Part shown: positions 3,089 to 30,052 of the stretch, in pieces
How positions within the stretch are numbered: the stretch's first letter is position 1
Layout of the letters: each line of letters begins with the position of its first letter
DNA from: Rhodococcus sp. P-2
GTDB lineage: Bacteria; Actinomycetota; Actinomycetes; Mycobacteriales; Mycobacteriaceae
Length of the DNA stretch: 64,000 nt
NCBI RefSeq assembly: GCF_016598535.1
Contig: NZ_CP066779.1
Span: 558,001-622,000 of the forward strand
Direction: 5' to 3'
Position numbers and translations under genes: made by a program
Notes under the pieces: generated by a model
Told to the model about the DNA's origin: nothing
Database searches by the model: none
Seen by the model: the letters and a program-made list of their open reading frames with translations, nothing else

Positions 3089-3092
3089 GTTG

Positions 3093-3460
3093 TGGAGCTG
3101 CCGGGAATTGAACCCGGGTCCTACGTTGAATCGCTAGGGCTTCTCCGTGTGCAGTTCGCTAAGTCTCTACTTGGATCTCCCAGTCTCGCGAACAAGCCAG
3201 GATGACGATCCCAGTCACTGTTTGATGTCCCATCCGACTCCGTGACCGAGCCGAACAGTAAAGCCCTCTAGCTGATGCCAGGAACCGGGTCGAGGGCAAC
3301 CCCGGGCTGACAGACACGCTTCGCTACTTAGGCAGCGAGAGCGTAGTCGCGCTGATTGGAATCGGCGCTTATAGGTTTGCAGCGACGCTTACGGTGGTCT
3401 CTTGCCTGCACCGACACGCTTCCCCTAACTCAACACACGCAGTCGAAACCGTTCAGCCCC
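3093..3460 (-). ncRNA. ssrA: Transfer-messenger RNA (tmRNA)
   Basis: Read on the minus strand, the 5' end is GGGGCTGAACGGTTTCGAC and the 3' end has the T-arm GGTTCAATTCCCGGC and acceptor strand CAGCTCC followed by A; the acceptor halves pair. CCA is not encoded. The resume reading frame at 3366-3328 reads ADSNQRDYALAA then TAA, one residue different from the recalled mycobacterial tag ADSHQRDYALAA. tmRNA with SmpB rescues stalled ribosomes and tags the peptide for proteolysis. smpB is 4 kb away on the same strand. Confidence 0.95.
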
Positions 3461-21876: not shown

Positions 21877-23205
21877 TCACATAGCGCTGAGCGTCCGGAT
21901 CAATTCCGCCTCGTCGACGCGCGTGGAGTGCCCGTCGCGGAGCACGACCTCGCCTGCAACGAACACCGTGTCCACGATCTGACGACTGCCCGTCGTGAGA
22001 ATGGACGCGCCCGGATCTCGCACCGGGAGGCAGCCGAAGTCACGTTCGAACCGAATCATGGTGAGGTCGGCGGGATCGCCCACGGAGATCCCGCCAGACC
22101 TGGCCGGCAGACCGAGTGCTGCGTTTGCACCGCCGGATGCGATGTCGATCATGGCCTCGAAGCCGAACAGGTCGGCGCGGCCGCGCGCGGCTCGCTGGAC
22201 ATAGGCACCGGTGCGCAGCGTCTCGAGCATGTCCTGAGTGTCGTTGCTGGCTGCGCCGTCCACACCCAACCCCACCGCGATCCCCGCGTCGAGGAAACTC
22301 GGGACGGGCGCGATTCCGCTACCGAGGCGCATGTTGCTGACGGGGTTGTACGACACTCCGACGCCGCGCTCCGCCAGCACCTTCTGACCACGGTCGTCTA
22401 GTTCCACGCAGTGGACCGCCAGCACCCGGTCCCACAAAAACCCATGGGAATCCAGGTAGTCGACCGCGTTCACGCCCGCGTGTTCGGTACACATCGCGTT
22501 GTCGGTCTGCGTCTCGAGCAGGTGGATCGAGACCGTCAGGTCGCGAGCCTGCGCAAACTCACGCACTTCCGACATCCCCTCCGGGGTCAGCGAACGCGGG
22601 TTCGGTACCGCGACCGCCACGTCGACGCGGGAACCGGCAACGTCGCGCATCATCTGATCCGTATGTGCGAGAACATCTCCGAGTGGTTGCATGAGCCGCG
22701 GATCGAAGCCCCACTTCCTCGTCTTGTCCGCCCGGTCTGCGGTTCCGCGTCCCAGCACGGCTCGAATTCCGGTGTCGTGCAACGCCCGGATCACGGCATC
22801 GTGAACCTCGCTGGACGGGTGCGGCCACATGTGTTCGACCAGGGTCGTCGTACCGCTGCGCAATGCCTCCAGCGAGGCTGCGACAGATGCCGCGTATGCG
22901 CGCTCCGGCGTGATCTGAACCGACTCTTCTGCGACCGCGAGTAGCCATTCGAGAAGCGGTGTCCCTTCGGCTATGCCACGCATCAGTGACTGCTGAAGGT
23001 GCGTATGGGTGTTGACGAACCCAGGGATCAGATACGCCCCCGATCCGTCCACACCTCCAGGTGTGGCAGTGCCGGTCGACTTCTCGATCGATTCGACCAC
23101 CCCATTCGAGACGACGACGTCACGGCCGGTCAGCCATTGCCCGCCGCTGTACAACGTCACGTCCCGGATGATCGCGTCGGTAATGTTCTTGGGCACGGTA
23201 GTCAT
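21877..23205 (-). CDS. TRZ/ATZ-family metal-dependent aminohydrolase (8-oxoguanine deaminase-like)
   Basis: The 442-aa amidohydrolase has the metal and catalytic residues in order: HTHLQQSL after GFVN (HxH, about 68-70), SIHLLETQTD (His plus the deaminase Glu, HxxE), AVHCVELDD, and GLGVDGAASNDTQDM (Asp). The NMRLGSGIAPVPSFLDAGI stretch is typical of 8-oxoguanine deaminase, hydroxydechloroatrazine aminohydrolase and relatives, which remove an amino group from an N-heterocycle. The usual HCP before SNMRL is SYNPV here, so specificity may differ. It is the last gene of the minus-strand operon with an ABC binding protein and an Fe(II) oxygenase; SD aggagaa. Function in that pathway is inferred. 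Confidence 0.82.
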   Translation of the reverse strand: MTTVPKNITDAIIRDVTLYSGGQWLTGRDVVVSNGVVESIEKSTGTATPGGVDGSGAYLIPGFVNTHTHLQQSLMRGIAEGTPLLEWLLAVAEESVQITPERAYAASVAASLEALRSGTTTLVEHMWPHPSSEVHDAVIRALHDTGIRAVLGRGTADRADKTRKWGFDPRLMQPLGDVLAHTDQMMRDVAGSRVDVAVAVPNPRSLTPEGMSEVREFAQARDLTVSIHLLETQTDNAMCTEHAGVNAVDYLDSHGFLWDRVLAVHCVELDDRGQKVLAERGVGVSYNPVSNMRLGSGIAPVPSFLDAGIAVGLGVDGAASNDTQDMLETLRTGAYVQRAARGRADLFGFEAMIDIASGGANAALGLPARSGGISVGDPADLTMIRFERDFGCLPVRDPGASILTTGSRQIVDTVFVAGEVVLRDGHSTRVDEAELIRTLSAM

Positions 23206-23245
23206 CGCCAGTTCTCCTGAAAGTGTGTGACGGAACGGATACGGA

Positions 23246-24223
23246 TCAACGCGCGAAGTTCGCGCGTACTCGCTGGTCGATGTAGTCCTCGGCAGTGATC
23301 GGCGGGTACTTGCCCGCTGGGCCCTCGATGGTCACGTCGCGGTTCGCCTGAGCGAAGAACGCGAGGCTGTAGCGGGCTCCCCGATAGTCGGTGACTCCGG
23401 GACTCTTGACTCGATGAAAATTCGACGGCAGGACGTCATCACTCCATCTCATCAGCATGTCGCCGATGTTGCAGGTGATCGCTTCCTCGGCCGGCACCAC
23501 CGACGTCCATTCCTGGGTGTCCATCTCCTTGCCCGGGCACAGTTGCAACCCGCCCTGACCGTCACGCTGGAAAAGCAATGTCAGGCAATCGAAATCGGTG
23601 TGTGCTCCGGCACGCCACATCCCTTCGACATCTGCGTCGGCGGCAAGGGGGAAGTAGTGGAGTAGTCGCAGTGTGCTCTGGTAGGTGTCCACCGACGGGT
23701 CATGTGCCCTGGTGAAGAAGTCTCGTTCGAATCCCAGCTTCTCGGCGAAGCACGAGAGCAGGTCCATCGCAATGCCCCAGCACTTGGCTTCGAAGTCCAG
23801 GATCGTTTCGCGGAATCCGCCCAATTCGTCTGCAGTGGGCCACAGATCACCCATATGCGGGCGGGTCACCTGGTAGGACTCTTTCTGATCAGGTGTTCCG
23901 ATGGAGGGACGCACCTGCGTCATGCTCTCCCAGCCGGAGTTGAAACCCTTCTTGAGCGGATACTGCGCTTTGACCTCAGTGGGCAGTGCAAAGAATCGCT
24001 CGGCCGCCGCGAAAGCCTCGCGGACTTGGTCCAGATCGATTCCGTGATTGACGATTTGAAAGAATCCGATGTCGGTCGCTGCCGACCACAACTCCTCGGC
24101 GATCTCGCTTCGCCGGTTCTCGAAATCCGAGAGATCGATTCTTCGGACCTCGCGGTCGGTGGTCTCCGTGCCCAGGCCACCCATGCGAGTCTCGCGGTTG
24201 AGTTCTGTCATGTCGTACGTCAT
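23246..24223 (-). CDS. Isopenicillin-N-synthase-family Fe(II) oxygenase, copy 1
   Basis: The 325-aa product has a DIOX_N-like half (about 28-140, GFFQIVNHGIDLDQV) and a 2OG-FeII_Oxy core with HxD in AGAHTDFDCLT, distal His in SNFHRVKSP and the 2-oxoglutarate-binding RxS in RYSLAFFAQANRD. It should use Fe(II), O2 and probably 2-oxoglutarate to oxidise a small molecule in the cytosol. SD aaggag, 15 bp after the binding-protein gene, which places it in one operon with uptake and the aminohydrolase. It is clearly different from the second oxygenase at 27362-28432, so the two are not a recent duplication. Confidence 0.88.
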   Translation of the reverse strand: MTYDMTELNRETRMGGLGTETTDREVRRIDLSDFENRRSEIAEELWSAATDIGFFQIVNHGIDLDQVREAFAAAERFFALPTEVKAQYPLKKGFNSGWESMTQVRPSIGTPDQKESYQVTRPHMGDLWPTADELGGFRETILDFEAKCWGIAMDLLSCFAEKLGFERDFFTRAHDPSVDTYQSTLRLLHYFPLAADADVEGMWRAGAHTDFDCLTLLFQRDGQGGLQLCPGKEMDTQEWTSVVPAEEAITCNIGDMLMRWSDDVLPSNFHRVKSPGVTDYRGARYSLAFFAQANRDVTIEGPAGKYPPITAEDYIDQRVRANFAR

Positions 24224-24238
24224 TTGCTGTCAGCTCCT

Positions 24239-25429
24239 TCAGCGGATTCCGATGGACCGATCGGTGAATTTGTCGGTGTAGATCTCTTCAGCAGTCAGTG
24301 ACTGCGGTATCGCCGCACCCCCGGAGTTCAGGATGGGCTTCAGTTCTTCGACGGTGTGGGCGACTCGCGTCATGTCGAACGTGCCGACAGATCCGTCTGC
24401 CTCGTTCGCGATCAGGCCTTTTTCTTTCAGAAGCTGGGCACTGAACGCTGCTTCACCCTCGGTGTAGGGAGAGAACGACACGTCCTGCGAGACGACGTCG
24501 ACAATGGCAGCATTCGCCGTATCCGGCGCAGTGATGTAGTCCGCGGTGGCCTGCTGAATGATCGGAACCAGCTTGCTCAAACACGGCGAGAGTGTCTCGA
24601 CCTTGTCGGCACGAACGGAAACATTGGACGCGTAGATGTCGAAACCCGAATCTTTCAGCAGGTCATAGGAAACCGGCTTCTCCCACGCCGGCGTCTCCTT
24701 CTCGTACGTGTACGGTTCCGAATTCGCGAATCCTTGCTGAGCGATGGTCGGGTCACCGACAAATCGTGAGGGAGCTCCGTCGTAGCTCGTGTCGAGCTGA
24801 GACTGCTTCAGTAGTCCTTTCGCAACGAGCCACTGCGGAAAGAGTTGCTCTTTGGAAACGACGACACTCGCGTCGGACTTGCCGATGTCGGCAACACTCG
24901 TCCAGTCCGGATGCGACTCTTTGTCCCACATGAGGATTGCCGGACTGTATTTGAGCAATGGCGTGACGGCAACAACGGGCTGACTTGCCGCGGCCGCGAT
25001 CACCTGATCGCCGTGCACCAAGCCGAGAGTGATGGAATCGTCGACGTACATCTGGGAGCTGACGGTTTGGAACCCGATTGCCGGTCCCCCGGCCCGCAAG
25101 GTCAGGCCGACTCCGGTGTCCTTCCCTTCGGCGACGAGAGTCCCACTGACGGACTTGTCGTCGGTGTCGACCGAATAGCCGGGACCGAGCATCTCGAAGA
25201 GCGCTCCCATATCCGACTGTGGCTGCCATTGGAGTTGAACCACAACGTTTTCCGGACAGAGACCCGCCAGGTTCTGAGCCTCAGCAGCTGGTTCGAGAGA
25301 TTCAGCCTTGGCCGTCTCAGCCTCACTGGAGCTGCACGCAGTCAATCCGATGGCTGCACACAAGGCCAGTGCCGCGCCCGCCGCTCCCACACTTCTGCGA
25401 TTGGAATGCATCTTGCGGTTTGAACACAC
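24239..25429 (-). CDS. ABC transporter substrate-binding lipoprotein, NMT1/THI5-like
   Basis: The 396-aa product has a lipoprotein signal (basic N-terminus, LALCAAIGLTAC lipobox). The mature part resembles NMT1/THI5-type periplasmic binding proteins: VQLQWQPQSDMGALFEML near the start, then two alpha/beta lobes. Known members bind nitrate, sulfonates, or pyrimidines such as thiamin precursors. Start GTG 25429 is chosen for its SD (aaggaga); the ATG at 25411 also leaves a usable signal. It is divergent from the ATPase-permease genes across a 251-bp regulatory region and should deliver substrate to them. Confidence 0.85.
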   Translation of the reverse strand: MCSNRKMHSNRRSVGAAGAALALCAAIGLTACSSSEAETAKAESLEPAAEAQNLAGLCPENVVVQLQWQPQSDMGALFEMLGPGYSVDTDDKSVSGTLVAEGKDTGVGLTLRAGGPAIGFQTVSSQMYVDDSITLGLVHGDQVIAAAASQPVVAVTPLLKYSPAILMWDKESHPDWTSVADIGKSDASVVVSKEQLFPQWLVAKGLLKQSQLDTSYDGAPSRFVGDPTIAQQGFANSEPYTYEKETPAWEKPVSYDLLKDSGFDIYASNVSVRADKVETLSPCLSKLVPIIQQATADYITAPDTANAAIVDVVSQDVSFSPYTEGEAAFSAQLLKEKGLIANEADGSVGTFDMTRVAHTVEELKPILNSGGAAIPQSLTAEEIYTDKFTDRSIGIR

Positions 25430-25510
25430 AGCGTCTCCTTCGTGAAAACAATTGGGATGTGGGCGAACCAAGCAGGGTGATCCGATGAGCACACTCTGCA
25501 GCACTTGGAT

Positions 25511-25520
25511 TACATGCAAT
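25511..25520. promoter_or_regulatory. Repeated motif in the divergent promoter, copy 1
   Basis: TACATGCAAT occurs here and again at 25612-25621, about one hundred bp apart, one near each divergent transcription unit. Adjacent bases extend this copy to ATGCAATGCA, which contains the small palindrome TGCA-A-TGCA. It is a candidate operator for the GntR/FCD regulator at the end of the locus. Confidence 0.4.
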
Positions 25521-25611
25521 GCACTTGTTGTTTCCATCAGGTAACGCACGCCGTAGTTCGACCTTCACCTGCAATGTCACCTCACATTTACATTCAGCAA
25601 TCTAGGCGACA

Positions 25612-25621
25612 TACATGCAAT
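25612..25621. promoter_or_regulatory. Repeated motif in the divergent promoter, copy 2
   Basis: Exact second copy of TACATGCAAT, 60 bp before the ATPase gene; a related TTGCATGCATTA lies at 25652-25663. The pair brackets the divergent promoters. The rest of the 251-bp gap is AT-richer than its surroundings and holds nothing else recognised. Confidence 0.4.
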
Positions 25622-25680
25622 TCAAGATAGTTCCTACAACTTGAAGAACTTTTGCATGCATTATCGAACCGGAGGCTCAG

Positions 25681-26463
25681 ATGGAACTCGCGAACACGAT
25701 GCAGGATGCCGACGCTCGCAAGCTCACCGCGCCGATGCAGATGGTCTTTTCCGACGTCGTCAAGAAGTTCGATACCGGCACTGTCGCGCTGGACGGCATC
25801 GATCTGGACGTGGAGCGAGGAGACTTCGTCGCCGTGGTCGGGCCCTCCGGCTGTGGCAAGTCGACTTTGTTGCGCATGGCGGCCGGCCTCGAGCGACCGA
25901 CCAGCGGAGCGGTTGCCCTCGACACCGAATCAGTTGGCTTCATCTTCCAGGAGCCGACTCTCCTCCCCTGGCGAACCGTGCAGGCCAACGTCGAACTATC
26001 CGCCGAACTCGGTGGCGGCGACAAAGCAGCGCGAAAATTGCGCGCCGACGAGGCAATTCGCGCAGTGGGACTTGCGGACTTCGCGAAACAACTGCCCAAT
26101 GCGTTGTCAGGCGGAATGAAGATGCGCGTCTCTTTGGCGCGAGCGCTCACTCTCGCACCTGCTGTGATGCTGCTCGACGAACCTTTTGGTGCGCTCGACG
26201 AAATGACACGACTGGAGATGCAGGTAGAGCTCCAAAGGCTCTACACCGAAAAGGGATTCACCTCGATGTTCATCACGCACTCGGTATCCGAGGCCGTCTA
26301 CCTCGCAAACAAGGTGGTCGTCATGACCGCCCGGCCTGGACGAATCCATTCGGTCGTGGACATCGATTTCCCGTACCCGCGTAGCCCGGAACTGCGCTAC
26401 GACGCCCGATACACCGAATATGTCGCCGAGATCTCGGCCAGTCTGCACGGGAGCCTACGATGA
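25681..26463 (+). CDS. ABC transporter ATP-binding protein (nitrate/sulfonate/pyrimidine-type)
   Basis: The 260-aa ATPase has Walker A GPSGCGKST (about 54-62), Q-loop IFQEPTLLPWRTV, signature LSGGMKMRVSLARAL, Walker B VMLLDEPFGALDEMTR and switch His in MFITHSVSEAVYLAN, the SsuB/TauB/NrtD subtype. SD ggagg precedes the ATG. Its stop overlaps the permease start (ATGA), so the two are translationally coupled. It powers import with the divergent binding protein. Confidence 0.92.
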   Translation: MELANTMQDADARKLTAPMQMVFSDVVKKFDTGTVALDGIDLDVERGDFVAVVGPSGCGKSTLLRMAAGLERPTSGAVALDTESVGFIFQEPTLLPWRTVQANVELSAELGGGDKAARKLRADEAIRAVGLADFAKQLPNALSGGMKMRVSLARALTLAPAVMLLDEPFGALDEMTRLEMQVELQRLYTEKGFTSMFITHSVSEAVYLANKVVVMTARPGRIHSVVDIDFPYPRSPELRYDARYTEYVAEISASLHGSLR

Positions 26464-27365
26464 CCGAAGTTCTTGCAGTTCAACGAGAAAACGCCACACG
26501 CCCTACCGTTGTTCGCCCCGATTCTGCGACAACGAGCCAAGCCGAGGTACAGCCTCGACGGTCCTCTCGAATGAGAGCGCTCGGCGCCCTGGTGCTCTAT
26601 CCGTTGCTCTCACTTGCAGGCGCGGTCGCAGCGTGGTCGATCGTCAGCTACCTTGTCCTCTCCCCCGAACGCCGGTTTCTCCTCCCGCCCCCGAGTCAGG
26701 TGCTGACCAAGTCGCTGCTCGACTGGAAACATCTCTCTCCCATGCTCGAAGCCCTCTCCGTGACGGCGCAGGTTGCACTGGTCGGCTTCGTCGTCGCAGT
26801 GGCAGTCGGCGTCGGAACCGGCGTGTTGATGAGCCAAGCCAAGTGGATCGAGCGGATCGTCTATCCGTACGCCGTTGTTCTGCAAGTCATTCCCATCCTT
26901 GCCATCGTGCCCCTCATCGGCCTCTGGTTCGGCTACGGCATGACCGCTCGTACTCTGGTGTGTGTTCTCATCGCAGCCTTCCCGATCATCACCAACACAC
27001 ACTTCGGTTTACAGTCGGTCGATCGCGGATTGCACGAACTCTTCACCCTCGGACGAGCGTCACGGTGGGATCGACTGGTGAAACTCGAACTGCGAGCGGC
27101 AATGCCGGCCATTCTCACCGGCATTCGCACCGCCTCCGGCCTCGTTGTGGTCGGTGCCATCATCGGCGACATGTTCTTCGCCAAAGGACAACCCGGGATC
27201 GGAACCCTGCTCGACGTCTACCGAAGCCGCCTTCAGTCCGAGGATCTGATCGCCGCGATCGTGATCGCGTCGGTGTTCGGCGTCCTCGTCTTCTCTGCCT
27301 TTGGATTCCTCTCACGTGTGCTCGTCGGCAAGTGGCACACGTCCGGCCGCAAGGACTTTAAATGA
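26460..27365 (+). CDS. ABC transporter permease (SsuC/TauC-like)
   Basis: The 301-aa product has about six membrane helices and the coupling EAA-type loop near residues 195-225 (LHELFTLGRASRWDRLVKLELRAAMPAILTG), as in binding-protein-dependent transport permeases of the nitrate/taurine group. It overlaps the ATPase upstream and the second oxygenase downstream by 4 bp each (ATGA), so transport and oxidation genes are made together. Confidence 0.92.
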   Translation: MTEVLAVQRENATRPTVVRPDSATTSQAEVQPRRSSRMRALGALVLYPLLSLAGAVAAWSIVSYLVLSPERRFLLPPPSQVLTKSLLDWKHLSPMLEALSVTAQVALVGFVVAVAVGVGTGVLMSQAKWIERIVYPYAVVLQVIPILAIVPLIGLWFGYGMTARTLVCVLIAAFPIITNTHFGLQSVDRGLHELFTLGRASRWDRLVKLELRAAMPAILTGIRTASGLVVVGAIIGDMFFAKGQPGIGTLLDVYRSRLQSEDLIAAIVIASVFGVLVFSAFGFLSRVLVGKWHTSGRKDFK

Positions 27366-28432
27366 CCCACGAAATTCCTGTCTTCGACATTCCTACGATC
27401 GATATCACCCCGTACCGCCGCGGCGAGGCAGCGGTTGCGAACGCAACCAACAGCACTGCCTGCGCGGAGGTCGCAGCCCAACTCGATCGTGCGTGCCGGG
27501 AGGTCGGATTCATACAGATTGTCGGACACAGCATTCCACGATCGGTGACCGACGGACTGGCCGACGCTCTCGACGAATTCTTTGCTCTCCCACTCACGGT
27601 GAAGAACAACTATCGCCGTCCCTCGTCCGAGAACCGTGGCTACTCACCACCGAAGTCGGAATCACTCAGCATGAGCCTGGGCGTCGCCTCTGCAAACCAG
27701 ATGAACGATTTCTACGAAGCGATAGTCGTGGGCACGCAGGTGAGCGACTATCCGGGCGTCGACCTGCCCGAGTCCAGCTACGCCGCCAACACCTGGCCCG
27801 TGGCCGCGCCCGGATTCCGACCGGCCATCGAAGAGTATTTCCGTCATGCACAGGGCTTGGCACGAATCCTGATGTGCGCCTTTACCGACGCCCTCGGATT
27901 GCAGCCCGGGTACTTCGATTCGATGCTCGACCATTCGATCGACGCGATGAAGATGAACAACTACGCACTGCCCGAAGGTGAGATCCGCATCTCCGGCGAC
28001 ATGACGGGAATGGGTGCTCACACCGACTTCGGAATTTTGACCATCCTGTGGGCAGATCAAGTCCCGGGCCTTCAAGTTCTGAGTGCCGATGGCGTATGGC
28101 ACGACGTCCAACCTGCCGACGGCGCACTCTTGATCAACCTCGGCGACGCGATGGCACGCTGGACGAACGACCGATGGCGCTCGACCGTGCACCGAGTCGA
28201 CCCACCTGTCGTTGATGGTCGAATTATCCGACGTCGCTCTGCTGCATTCTTTTTCGACGGAAACCACGACGCCGTCATCGAAGCACTGCCAGGGACTCTC
28301 GCACCGGGCGAAGTGGGATACCCGCCGATCACGATCGCTGAGAACATCGCGGCCAAAGTGGCCGGACTGAAAGGCGCGATGAAGTCCGAGGTCGACAGTC
28401 GCAGCGCTGACCGAGTGCGCGCCGCTGGATAG
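27362..28432 (+). CDS. Isopenicillin-N-synthase-family Fe(II) oxygenase, copy 2
   Basis: The 356-aa product has an N-terminal DIOX_N half (REVGFIQIVGHSIPRSV) and a 2OG-FeII_Oxy core with HxD in MGAHTDFGILTILW, distal His in RSTVHRVDPP and RxS in RRRSAAFFFDGNHDA. It is a cytosolic Fe(II)/probably 2-oxoglutarate-dependent oxidase of unknown substrate. Translationally coupled to the permease. With the oxygenase at 23246-24223 the locus encodes two different family members, suggesting two successive oxidations or two related substrates. Confidence 0.88.
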   Translation: MTHEIPVFDIPTIDITPYRRGEAAVANATNSTACAEVAAQLDRACREVGFIQIVGHSIPRSVTDGLADALDEFFALPLTVKNNYRRPSSENRGYSPPKSESLSMSLGVASANQMNDFYEAIVVGTQVSDYPGVDLPESSYAANTWPVAAPGFRPAIEEYFRHAQGLARILMCAFTDALGLQPGYFDSMLDHSIDAMKMNNYALPEGEIRISGDMTGMGAHTDFGILTILWADQVPGLQVLSADGVWHDVQPADGALLINLGDAMARWTNDRWRSTVHRVDPPVVDGRIIRRRSAAFFFDGNHDAVIEALPGTLAPGEVGYPPITIAENIAAKVAGLKGAMKSEVDSRSADRVRAAG

Positions 28433-28479
28433 CGCTCCCGGGTACGGTCGAGATCGTGCAGGATCGAAATGAGGACAAG

Positions 28480-29124
28480 ATGACCACCACCGAACGAGCT
28501 TTACTCACCGAGTCCGTGCACGAAACGCTTCGCGAACTGATCTTTTCGGGAGAGTTGGCGCCGGGGACACCACTGAGCGTTCCCGCACTGGCGAGCAAAC
28601 TCAATGTCAGTCGAACGCCGGTCCGCGAGGCCGTGCAGCAGTTGATCTACGAGGGCATCGCCGTCCACACCCGAAATGCGGGTGCAAAAGTTGATTCACT
28701 GGACGCAGAGTCGCTGCGCGCGGTCTTCGAGGTGCGTGAGGTTCTCGACGGTCTCGCGGCGTTCAACGCGACAGCCAATGCCACCCACGAAACCGTGTCA
28801 CAGTTGAACAAGATGGTGCAGGTCCAACGCGAACTTCTCGAGAGCCCGCCGGATCAGCGTCGAGATTCGAAGCTGGACCTCGAGTTCCACACCTTGATTC
28901 GTGAGACTGCGTGCAATCACCCGCTCAGTGAAGCCCTTCACCGACTGGACGGACAATCACATCTCTTCCGTTCGGACATGTGGAGCCTCGAGCTCAATCG
29001 GCGGATCGCTGTCACCGAGCACGCTCGTATAGTCGCGGCCATCGAATCGGGTGACGCCTTGGGAGCCAGAACTGCCGCGAGCGCACACGTAGCCGGGCTA
29101 CTCGTCCGAACAACCCGGACCTGA
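28480..29124 (+). CDS. GntR-family regulator with FCD domain
   Basis: The 214-aa product has a GntR winged helix (residues 5-75: LRELIFSGELAPGTPLSVPA, then LNVSRTPVREAVQQLIYEG) and an all-helical FCD ligand-binding domain with LEFHTLIRE and metal-type His residues. FadR/FCD regulators usually respond to a carboxylate or pathway intermediate. Start ATG 28480 follows SD gagga; a GTG at 28456 is possible. It lies 47 bp after the second oxygenase gene and is the likely local regulator of the transporter/oxygenase/aminohydrolase locus. Confidence 0.88.
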   Translation: MTTTERALLTESVHETLRELIFSGELAPGTPLSVPALASKLNVSRTPVREAVQQLIYEGIAVHTRNAGAKVDSLDAESLRAVFEVREVLDGLAAFNATANATHETVSQLNKMVQVQRELLESPPDQRRDSKLDLEFHTLIRETACNHPLSEALHRLDGQSHLFRSDMWSLELNRRIAVTEHARIVAAIESGDALGARTAASAHVAGLLVRTTRT

Positions 29125-29978: not shown

Positions 29979-30052
29979 TAGCGGGGACAGGATTTGAACC
30001 TGCGACCTCTGGGTTATGAGCCCAGCGAGCTACCGAGCTGCTCCACCCCGCG
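29979..30052 (-). tRNA. Initiator tRNA-Met (anticodon CAU)
   Basis: The minus strand folds as a 74-nt tRNA: acceptor CGCGGGG/CCCCGC with an unpaired first base (C1-U72), anticodon loop CTCATAA, and three G-C pairs (GGG/CCC) below the anticodon loop, the initiator hallmarks. T-arm GGTTCAAATCC. CCA is not encoded. A strong terminator follows directly. Confidence 0.95.

Follow-up and report, generated by a model that had tools for sequence, protein, structure and literature searches.

The closest described relative of the locus treated here is a proteobacterial gene set under a xanthine riboswitch (PMC7373994). In the available parts of that paper the set includes pcbC-type dioxygenases, NMT1-like proteins, tauA, amidohydrolases and tadA, the riboswitch binds xanthine at about 3.7 uM and urate at about 25 uM and did not respond to compounds related to thiamin or histidine at up to 1 mM, and the precise functions of the dioxygenases were not established as of 2020. 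Single enzymes from other systems are also relevant. In thymine-7-hydroxylase (T7H), Asn87, Arg190, Phe292 and Tyr217 are named for the binding of the base and of 2-oxoglutarate (2OG) (PMC4787775), and guanine deaminase and the N2,N2-dimethylguanine hydrolases (NdmH) use Gln, Glu, His and Asp in their mechanism (PMC13054789). The fungal XanA, which is 2OG-dependent, turns xanthine into urate and is a model for purine oxidation as an alternative or addition to xanthine dehydrogenase (XDH) (PMC5611559). Here we describe an actinobacterial, GntR-linked form of the proteobacterial gene set, a conserved purine module, at positions 21877..29124 of a 64,000-nucleotide stretch (the window) of the 6.34 Mb chromosome of Rhodococcus sp. 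P-2 (NZ_CP066779.1, positions 558,001 to 622,000).

With a probability of about 0.77 the locus is a module for the uptake and oxidation of a purine base. We infer the substrate, the reactions and their order from directly observed gene content, conservation, a conserved palindrome pattern, a riboswitch on orthologues and operon fusions. The ABC importer, made up of a substrate-binding protein (SBP), a permease and an ATPase, would import a purine base or a close analogue, and an aminohydrolase (AMH) would hydrolyse its exocyclic amine, yielding xanthine from a guanine-type purine or urate from 8-oxoguanine. Two oxygenases, Ox1 and Ox2, would act as Fe(II)/2OG enzymes on the free base in the manner of T7H and oxidise the purine, either by ring hydroxylation or by oxidative N-demethylation. 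The end product would be xanthine and/or urate, which may feed the organism's own XDH-uricase cluster about 130 kb away.

An earlier note on this DNA had suggested uptake, one or two oxidations and deamination of an N-heterocycle, and had called the gene set a pathway it could not name. The comparative evidence fits that series of steps and favours an amino-purine among the substrates listed, because of the riboswitch upstream of Ox1 orthologues, the fusions with uricolytic operons and the NCS2 permeases beside Ox1; pyrimidines, triazines and thiamin fragments found no support. The pathway does have a counterpart in print, although the functions of its enzymes are not established in the available parts of that description (PMC7373994).

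Gene content, conservation and purine neighbours

The seven genes stand in two divergent arms, as the earlier note had laid them out and as a check of the reading frames and Pfam bear out. On the minus strand SBP (24239..25411) is followed by Ox1 (23246..24223; DIOX_N/IPNS type) and AMH (21877..23205; TRZ/ATZ-type of the amidohydrolase superfamily, PF01979 Amidohydro_1), with gaps of 15 and 40 bases. On the plus strand the genes for the ATPase (25681..26463; ABC_tran), the permease (26460..27365; BPD_transp_1) and Ox2 (27362..28432) are joined by two overlaps of 4 bases, and a GntR/FCD regulator (28456..29124; Pfam GntR and FCD) follows after 23 bases. The two oxygenases had been assigned to the IPNS type, and both contain DIOX_N and 2OG-FeII_Oxy (PF14226 and PF03171); the motif NMRLxSGIAP ascribed to the aminohydrolase is present as NMRLGSGIAP.

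The label NMT1/THI5-like for SBP was not confirmed. It follows from the lipoprotein start and from partner genes that resemble sulfonate/taurine importers. SBP itself matches nothing in Pfam at E<=0.001, and nothing better than E 0.07 in a PDB sequence search. The protein starts at the ATG ending at 25411 (MHSNRR...LTAC, with the lipobox LTAC), and the listed reading frame extends to a GTG at 25549. The ATPase is SsuB/TauB-like, with an aliphatic sulfonate ATPase as top NCBIfam model (199 bits, cut-off of 395 not reached), and the permease is SaoP/SsuC-like, with SaoP as top model (96 bits, cut-off of 295 not reached) and SsuC next.

Searching the genome collection with a profile built from six Ox1 sequences gave 435 relatives. 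Of these, the 80 best loci (L077-L156), each with flanks of at most 10 kb, were retained and divided, according to record titles and gene content, into 52 actinobacterial (53 with the window) and 28 proteobacterial loci. Genes in the relatives were called by a codon model and the main counts were repeated by tblastn without gene calls; the module counts come from tblastn at set identity thresholds and cover genes no more than 9 kb from Ox1. Across these best 80 of the 435 relatives Ox1 is one tight family with 67-100% identity, Proteobacteria included (69-71% against the proteobacterial copies; 63-77% in the alignment A5, the R. erythropolis copy excepted). The window Ox1 is 100% identical to that of a locus titled R. 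erythropolis (L077) and 99% identical to that of one titled R. qingshengii (L079).

Near Ox1 in the 52 actinobacterial loci are AMH (26 loci), SBP (30), the ATPase (27), the permease (27), GntR (26) and Ox2 (19). The co-occurrence of the module genes exceeds chance: 24 of the 52 loci have SBP, ATPase, permease and GntR all alongside Ox1, joined by Ox2 in 19 of those 24 and by AMH in 12. Six of the seven Gordonia loci have Ox1 and AMH alone of the module in the printed neighbourhood; in L155, the other one, the module is complete. Relatives of SBP (E<=0.001) occur in 36 of 298 genomes of the order, the own genome counted. The same SBP type was also seen at L047:7759-14613, near an MTHFR-like protein and amidohydrolases resembling cytosine deaminase and 8-oxoguanine deaminase, which hints at a version of the pathway that releases C1 units. 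Two records are perhaps mislabelled or contaminated: L096, titled Kitasatospora arboriphila, has a Williamsia-like neighbourhood, and L140 (Pantoea) an Acidovorax-like one.

Rfam finds the xanthine riboswitch RF03054 directly upstream of the Ox1 orthologue, on the same strand, in 19 of the 21 proteobacterial loci searched out of the 28, the two without it being L106 and L151. A related Ox1, an ABC importer and, in 20 of 28 loci, a nearby deaminase are common to the published set (PMC7373994, as far as its available parts describe it) and the actinobacterial form. The latter differs in having GntR-FCD with palindromes and no riboswitch in the loci tested, a deaminase of another fold, Ox2 and, in two species, fusion with a uricolytic operon. 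At L098:4515-9549 and in similar Acidovorax loci the riboswitch-linked Ox1 has beside it a long, conserved operon that includes a gene of the creatininase family, a cytosine-deaminase-like gene (on L107) and genes that we read as RidA-like and ferredoxin-like; this operon may encode another route for purines or ureides.

The fusions are seen in Rhodococcus sp. RD6.2 (L090) and R. triatomae (L081). In L090 the gene order is SBP, Ox1, AMH, OHCU decarboxylase, uricase, HIUase, a DUF6986 protein, allantoicase and a polysaccharide-deacetylase-type gene, which we read as PuuE-like; L081 has the same order with OHCU decarboxylase and uricase fused. From AMH onward adjacent genes in both overlap or are at most 7 bases apart. 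The DUF6986 protein (L090:14222-15460 and L081:14253-15503) matches, in L090, PF22484 and weakly HpcH/HpaI; its place between HIUase and allantoicase suggests that it takes part in the metabolism of ureides or glyoxylate.

Other loci place the module beside purine genes without such fusion. In L094 and L099 it lies next to a run of amidohydrolase, uricase, HIUase, OHCU decarboxylase, NCS2 and XDH genes (families checked on L094), and in L080, L082, L084 and L086 XDH genes, recognised by similarity to L094, are found a few genes from Ox1. Counting the window, 15 of 53 actinobacterial loci have an NCS2 gene no more than six genes from Ox1. Twelve Streptomyces loci have Ox1 followed by an NCS2 gene, seven of them in the order NCS2-AMH-Ox1-NCS2, and the one NCS2 member that was scored lies above the NCBIfam cut-off for xanthine permease.

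At the level of whole genomes, uricase is present in each of the 15 Ox1-bearing genomes (E<=1e-60) of the order sample, against 136 of 298 overall, although the 15 do not count as independent cases because they represent seven genera. XDH of the XdhM type (E<=1e-100) was found in only four of these 15 and in 44 of 298 overall, a count that says little because other XDH types were not searched there. In the own genome HIUase, uricase, an amidohydrolase of cluster c8 and XDH form one cluster about 130 kb from the locus, identified by similarity and, for uricase and the molybdenum protein, also by Pfam. A paralogue of Ox2 (54% identical) adjoins an NCS2-type permease near this cluster (L162:16499-18950, at about 723-725 kb).

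Oxygenases and deaminases

The nearest solved structure to Ox1 is T7H (5c3p, E 4.6e-32), and Ox2, which is 31% identical to Ox1, is nearest to 9ovh and then to 5c3p. In alignment with T7H, to which the two are 29-34% identical, both keep the HxD...H iron triad, the R-x-S site for 2OG and the equivalents of Asn87 and Phe292. Ox1 also keeps Arg190 and has Phe for Tyr217. Ox2 has Lys in place of Arg190, unlike its paralogue near the XDH cluster, which has Arg, and 9ovh has Trp at the position of Asn87. The conserved pocket residues would fit a flat free base without naming it; the context of Ox1 and Ox2, unlike that of T7H, is purine. Salvage of thymine to uracil was considered and rejected: T7H is the nearest fold, but the neighbours that could be identified are purine genes, and no search for iso-orotate decarboxylase was made.

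For AMH the top NCBIfam model is 8-oxoguanine deaminase (NF006055), at 258.8 bits and with the cut-off of 532 not reached. The best PDB match is 3hpa; triazine hydrolases are among its relatives there, and AtzA is about as close as AtzB and 3hpa. H67, H69, H228, E231, H265 and D316 are present in 30 of 30 cluster members and Q72 in 28. Mapped through AtzB, the catalytic Q74, E243, H275 and D326 of NdmH correspond to Q72, E231, H265 and D316, so all four are kept, and AMH shares with the group of 8-oxoguanine deaminase, AtzB and NdmH both these residues and the NMRLxSGIAP stretch. It differs from 3hpa and AtzB in lacking the NLYxIW stretch and in having Trp for the Tyr of the DHLY stretch. When the aromatic residues W93, Y98 and Y133 that flank the site in NdmH are mapped, by eye, through AtzB and with W85 left out, W93 falls on W87, which is kept, A92/S95 replace the Tyr/Trp of NLYxIW, and Trp127 replaces Tyr. 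Because two flanking aromatic positions differ and the score is well under the cut-off for 8-oxoguanine deaminase, we read AMH as a putative separate subgroup, and propose it as a guanine-type purine deaminase.

The deaminase is replaceable while Ox1 stays. Of the 19 loci that carry Ox2 beside Ox1, seven have AMH without c5, an amidohydrolase adjoining GntR, and 12 have c5 without AMH; none has both and none has neither. Eight of the 12 come from Williamsia-like records and are not independent. The c5 member tested is nearest to cytosine deaminase models, below their cut-offs. A small zinc deaminase of the CDA fold lies near Ox1 in 20 of 28 proteobacterial loci, with a Bacillus guanine deaminase as top PDB match, nearly tied with other deaminases. 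Ox1 is thus accompanied by deaminases of two folds, and the simplest reason for this would be that the pathway needs removal of an amine.

Catabolism of a pyrimidine, a triazine, a pterin or a thiamin fragment might be read from the same enzymes, given that thymine dioxygenase is the solved oxygenase nearest to Ox1, that triazine hydrolases are PDB relatives of AMH and that c5 resembles cytosine deaminase, below cut-off. We consider this improbable: the pathway neighbours that family searches could identify belong to purine metabolism, and the riboswitch was silent to thiamin- and histidine-related compounds up to 1 mM in the available parts of PMC7373994. Two narrower candidates were rejected. 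Triazine hydrolysis is at odds with the purine neighbours, although AMH stands about equally near to AtzA, AtzB and 3hpa. Uptake of thiamin or hydroxymethylpyrimidine (HMP) does not agree with an SBP lacking an NMT1 Pfam match, nor with the riboswitch, which in the same parts of PMC7373994 did not respond to thiamin-related compounds.

Riboswitch and putative palindromic operator

An operator-like palindrome, ATTACATGCAAT, lies in the divergent promoter region at 25509..25520 (exact match, no strand assigned). Weaker copies with 2 mismatches each, likewise without strand, are found at 25610..25621 (CATACATGCAAT) and, directly before the ATPase gene, at 25651..25662 (TTTGCATGCATT). Across the 1.55 Mb of the 80 loci there are 36 exact copies of the core TTRCATGYAA, spread over 30 loci, none of them among the 28 proteobacterial ones. 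All copies except one are at most 310 bases upstream of a called gene for SBP, the ATPase, Ox1 or, in L086, NCS2; the exception, in L087, is more than 400 bases from any called gene. A scan for sigma-70 promoters and terminators gave nothing above chance.

The GntR-FCD protein, for which we propose binding to TTRCATGYAA, probably controls both arms through these predicted sites. The same enzyme family seems to be under a riboswitch in Proteobacteria and under a palindromic operator in many Actinobacteria. MSMEG_5174 was ruled out as this regulator, being a GntR protein of the YtrA type according to the available parts of PMC9309504.

Possible routes to xanthine and urate

Several observations weigh against the purine module as proposed. 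Many of the 80 best loci are closely related, so their counts are not independent, and no deaminase is seen within six genes of Ox1 in 11 of the 53 actinobacterial loci and in 8 of the 28 from Proteobacteria, some on short contigs. RF03054 was found neither in the window nor in any of the seven actinobacterial loci searched with Rfam. At up to 2 mismatches the window has four palindrome matches, one of them inside the GntR gene, which is not above chance since 9 of 100 shuffles reach four; the palindrome is also absent from the XDH-uricase stretch of the own genome. Of 50 Ox1 genomes, 18 lack a PF01014 uricase: each of the 10 from Proteobacteria and 8 of the 40 from Actinobacteria, the latter including all six from Gordonia that were tested. 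The pathway therefore does not end in urate everywhere, and its end point may instead be xanthine. Proteins of the molybdenum hydroxylase type (PF02738) occur in 49 of the 50, and the need for a second oxidation route is therefore not obvious. A xanthine-binding OFF switch moreover suggests that Ox1 acts before xanthine and not on it.

The last two points are accommodated by one special case of the purine reading, the salvage of methylpurines, which we place first among the special cases and hold tentatively. Here Ox1 and Ox2 would N-demethylate methylxanthines or methylguanines, AMH would deaminate, and xanthine would pass to XDH. Xanthine as product matches xanthine as riboswitch ligand, and would explain both the OFF switch and the position of Ox1 beside XDH in L080, L082, L084 and L086; the PF02738 proteins in 49 of 50 Ox1 genomes are likewise consistent with it. 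T7H oxidises a methyl group (PMC4787775), and N2,N2-dimethylguanine hydrolases are among the relatives of AMH (PMC13054789). On the other hand, AMH differs at the positions mapped by eye, via AtzB, to NdmH Y98 and Y133, and in L090, with its fused uricolytic operon and no XDH-type protein found, xanthine would have no known way to urate.

The genome of L090 points instead to the other special case, in which the two oxygenases do the work of XDH without molybdenum (hypoxanthine to xanthine to urate, or oxidation of guanine at C8) and AMH is a guanine-type deaminase. Taken as one proposal this is possible, and we rank it second. L090 has no PF02738 and no PF20256 match, yet a full uricolytic operon stands behind Ox1 and AMH, and AMH is its sole match (E<=1e-30) to a guanine-deaminase-like query. 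Such a route needs two hydroxylases and one deaminase, which is the set present, and XanA offers a fungal precedent for xanthine oxidation by a 2OG enzyme as alternative or addition to XDH (PMC5611559).

L090 is, however, one draft genome whose completeness is not established, and MoaA is present in it. R. triatomae was ruled out as a second genome without XDH, as the single molybdenum protein of L081 is XdhM-like (52%) and has an FAD subunit and neighbours that we read as MobA-like and XdhC-like; the case is consequently argued from L090 alone. The PF02738 proteins in 49 of 50 Ox1 genomes also speak against it, and an OFF switch responding to xanthine is ill-suited to an enzyme that consumes xanthine. 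XanA, moreover, belongs to another oxygenase family, which we take to be the TauD type, whereas Ox1 and Ox2 have PF14226 and PF03171 as their sole Pfam matches, with none to TauD.

The actinobacterial versions of the purine module place the oxygenase family of the riboswitch papers in single operons together with uricase, HIUase and allantoicase, identify the deaminase that goes with it, include organisms convenient for laboratory work and narrow what had been some purine oxidation. Searches of the open-licence literature found no established function for the xanthine-riboswitch dioxygenases since the 2020 paper, and for bacterial 2OG oxygenases acting on purines only the riboswitch papers and the fungal XanA and HxnY were relevant among the matches listed. 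A bacterial molybdenum-free pathway from purine to urate, in which two T7H-like 2OG oxygenases and an unusual aminohydrolase would replace XDH and which in some rhodococci would run from uptake to allantoate breakdown in one locus, is possible but less likely than not, as is the reading of it as a bacterial counterpart of XanA built on a different oxygenase family. If true, it would add a further bacterial type of urate-making enzyme to XDH and the Rieske-type hpxDE of Klebsiella.

Elsewhere in the window Rfam places a tmRNA at 3090-3460 and a tRNA gene at 29979-30052.

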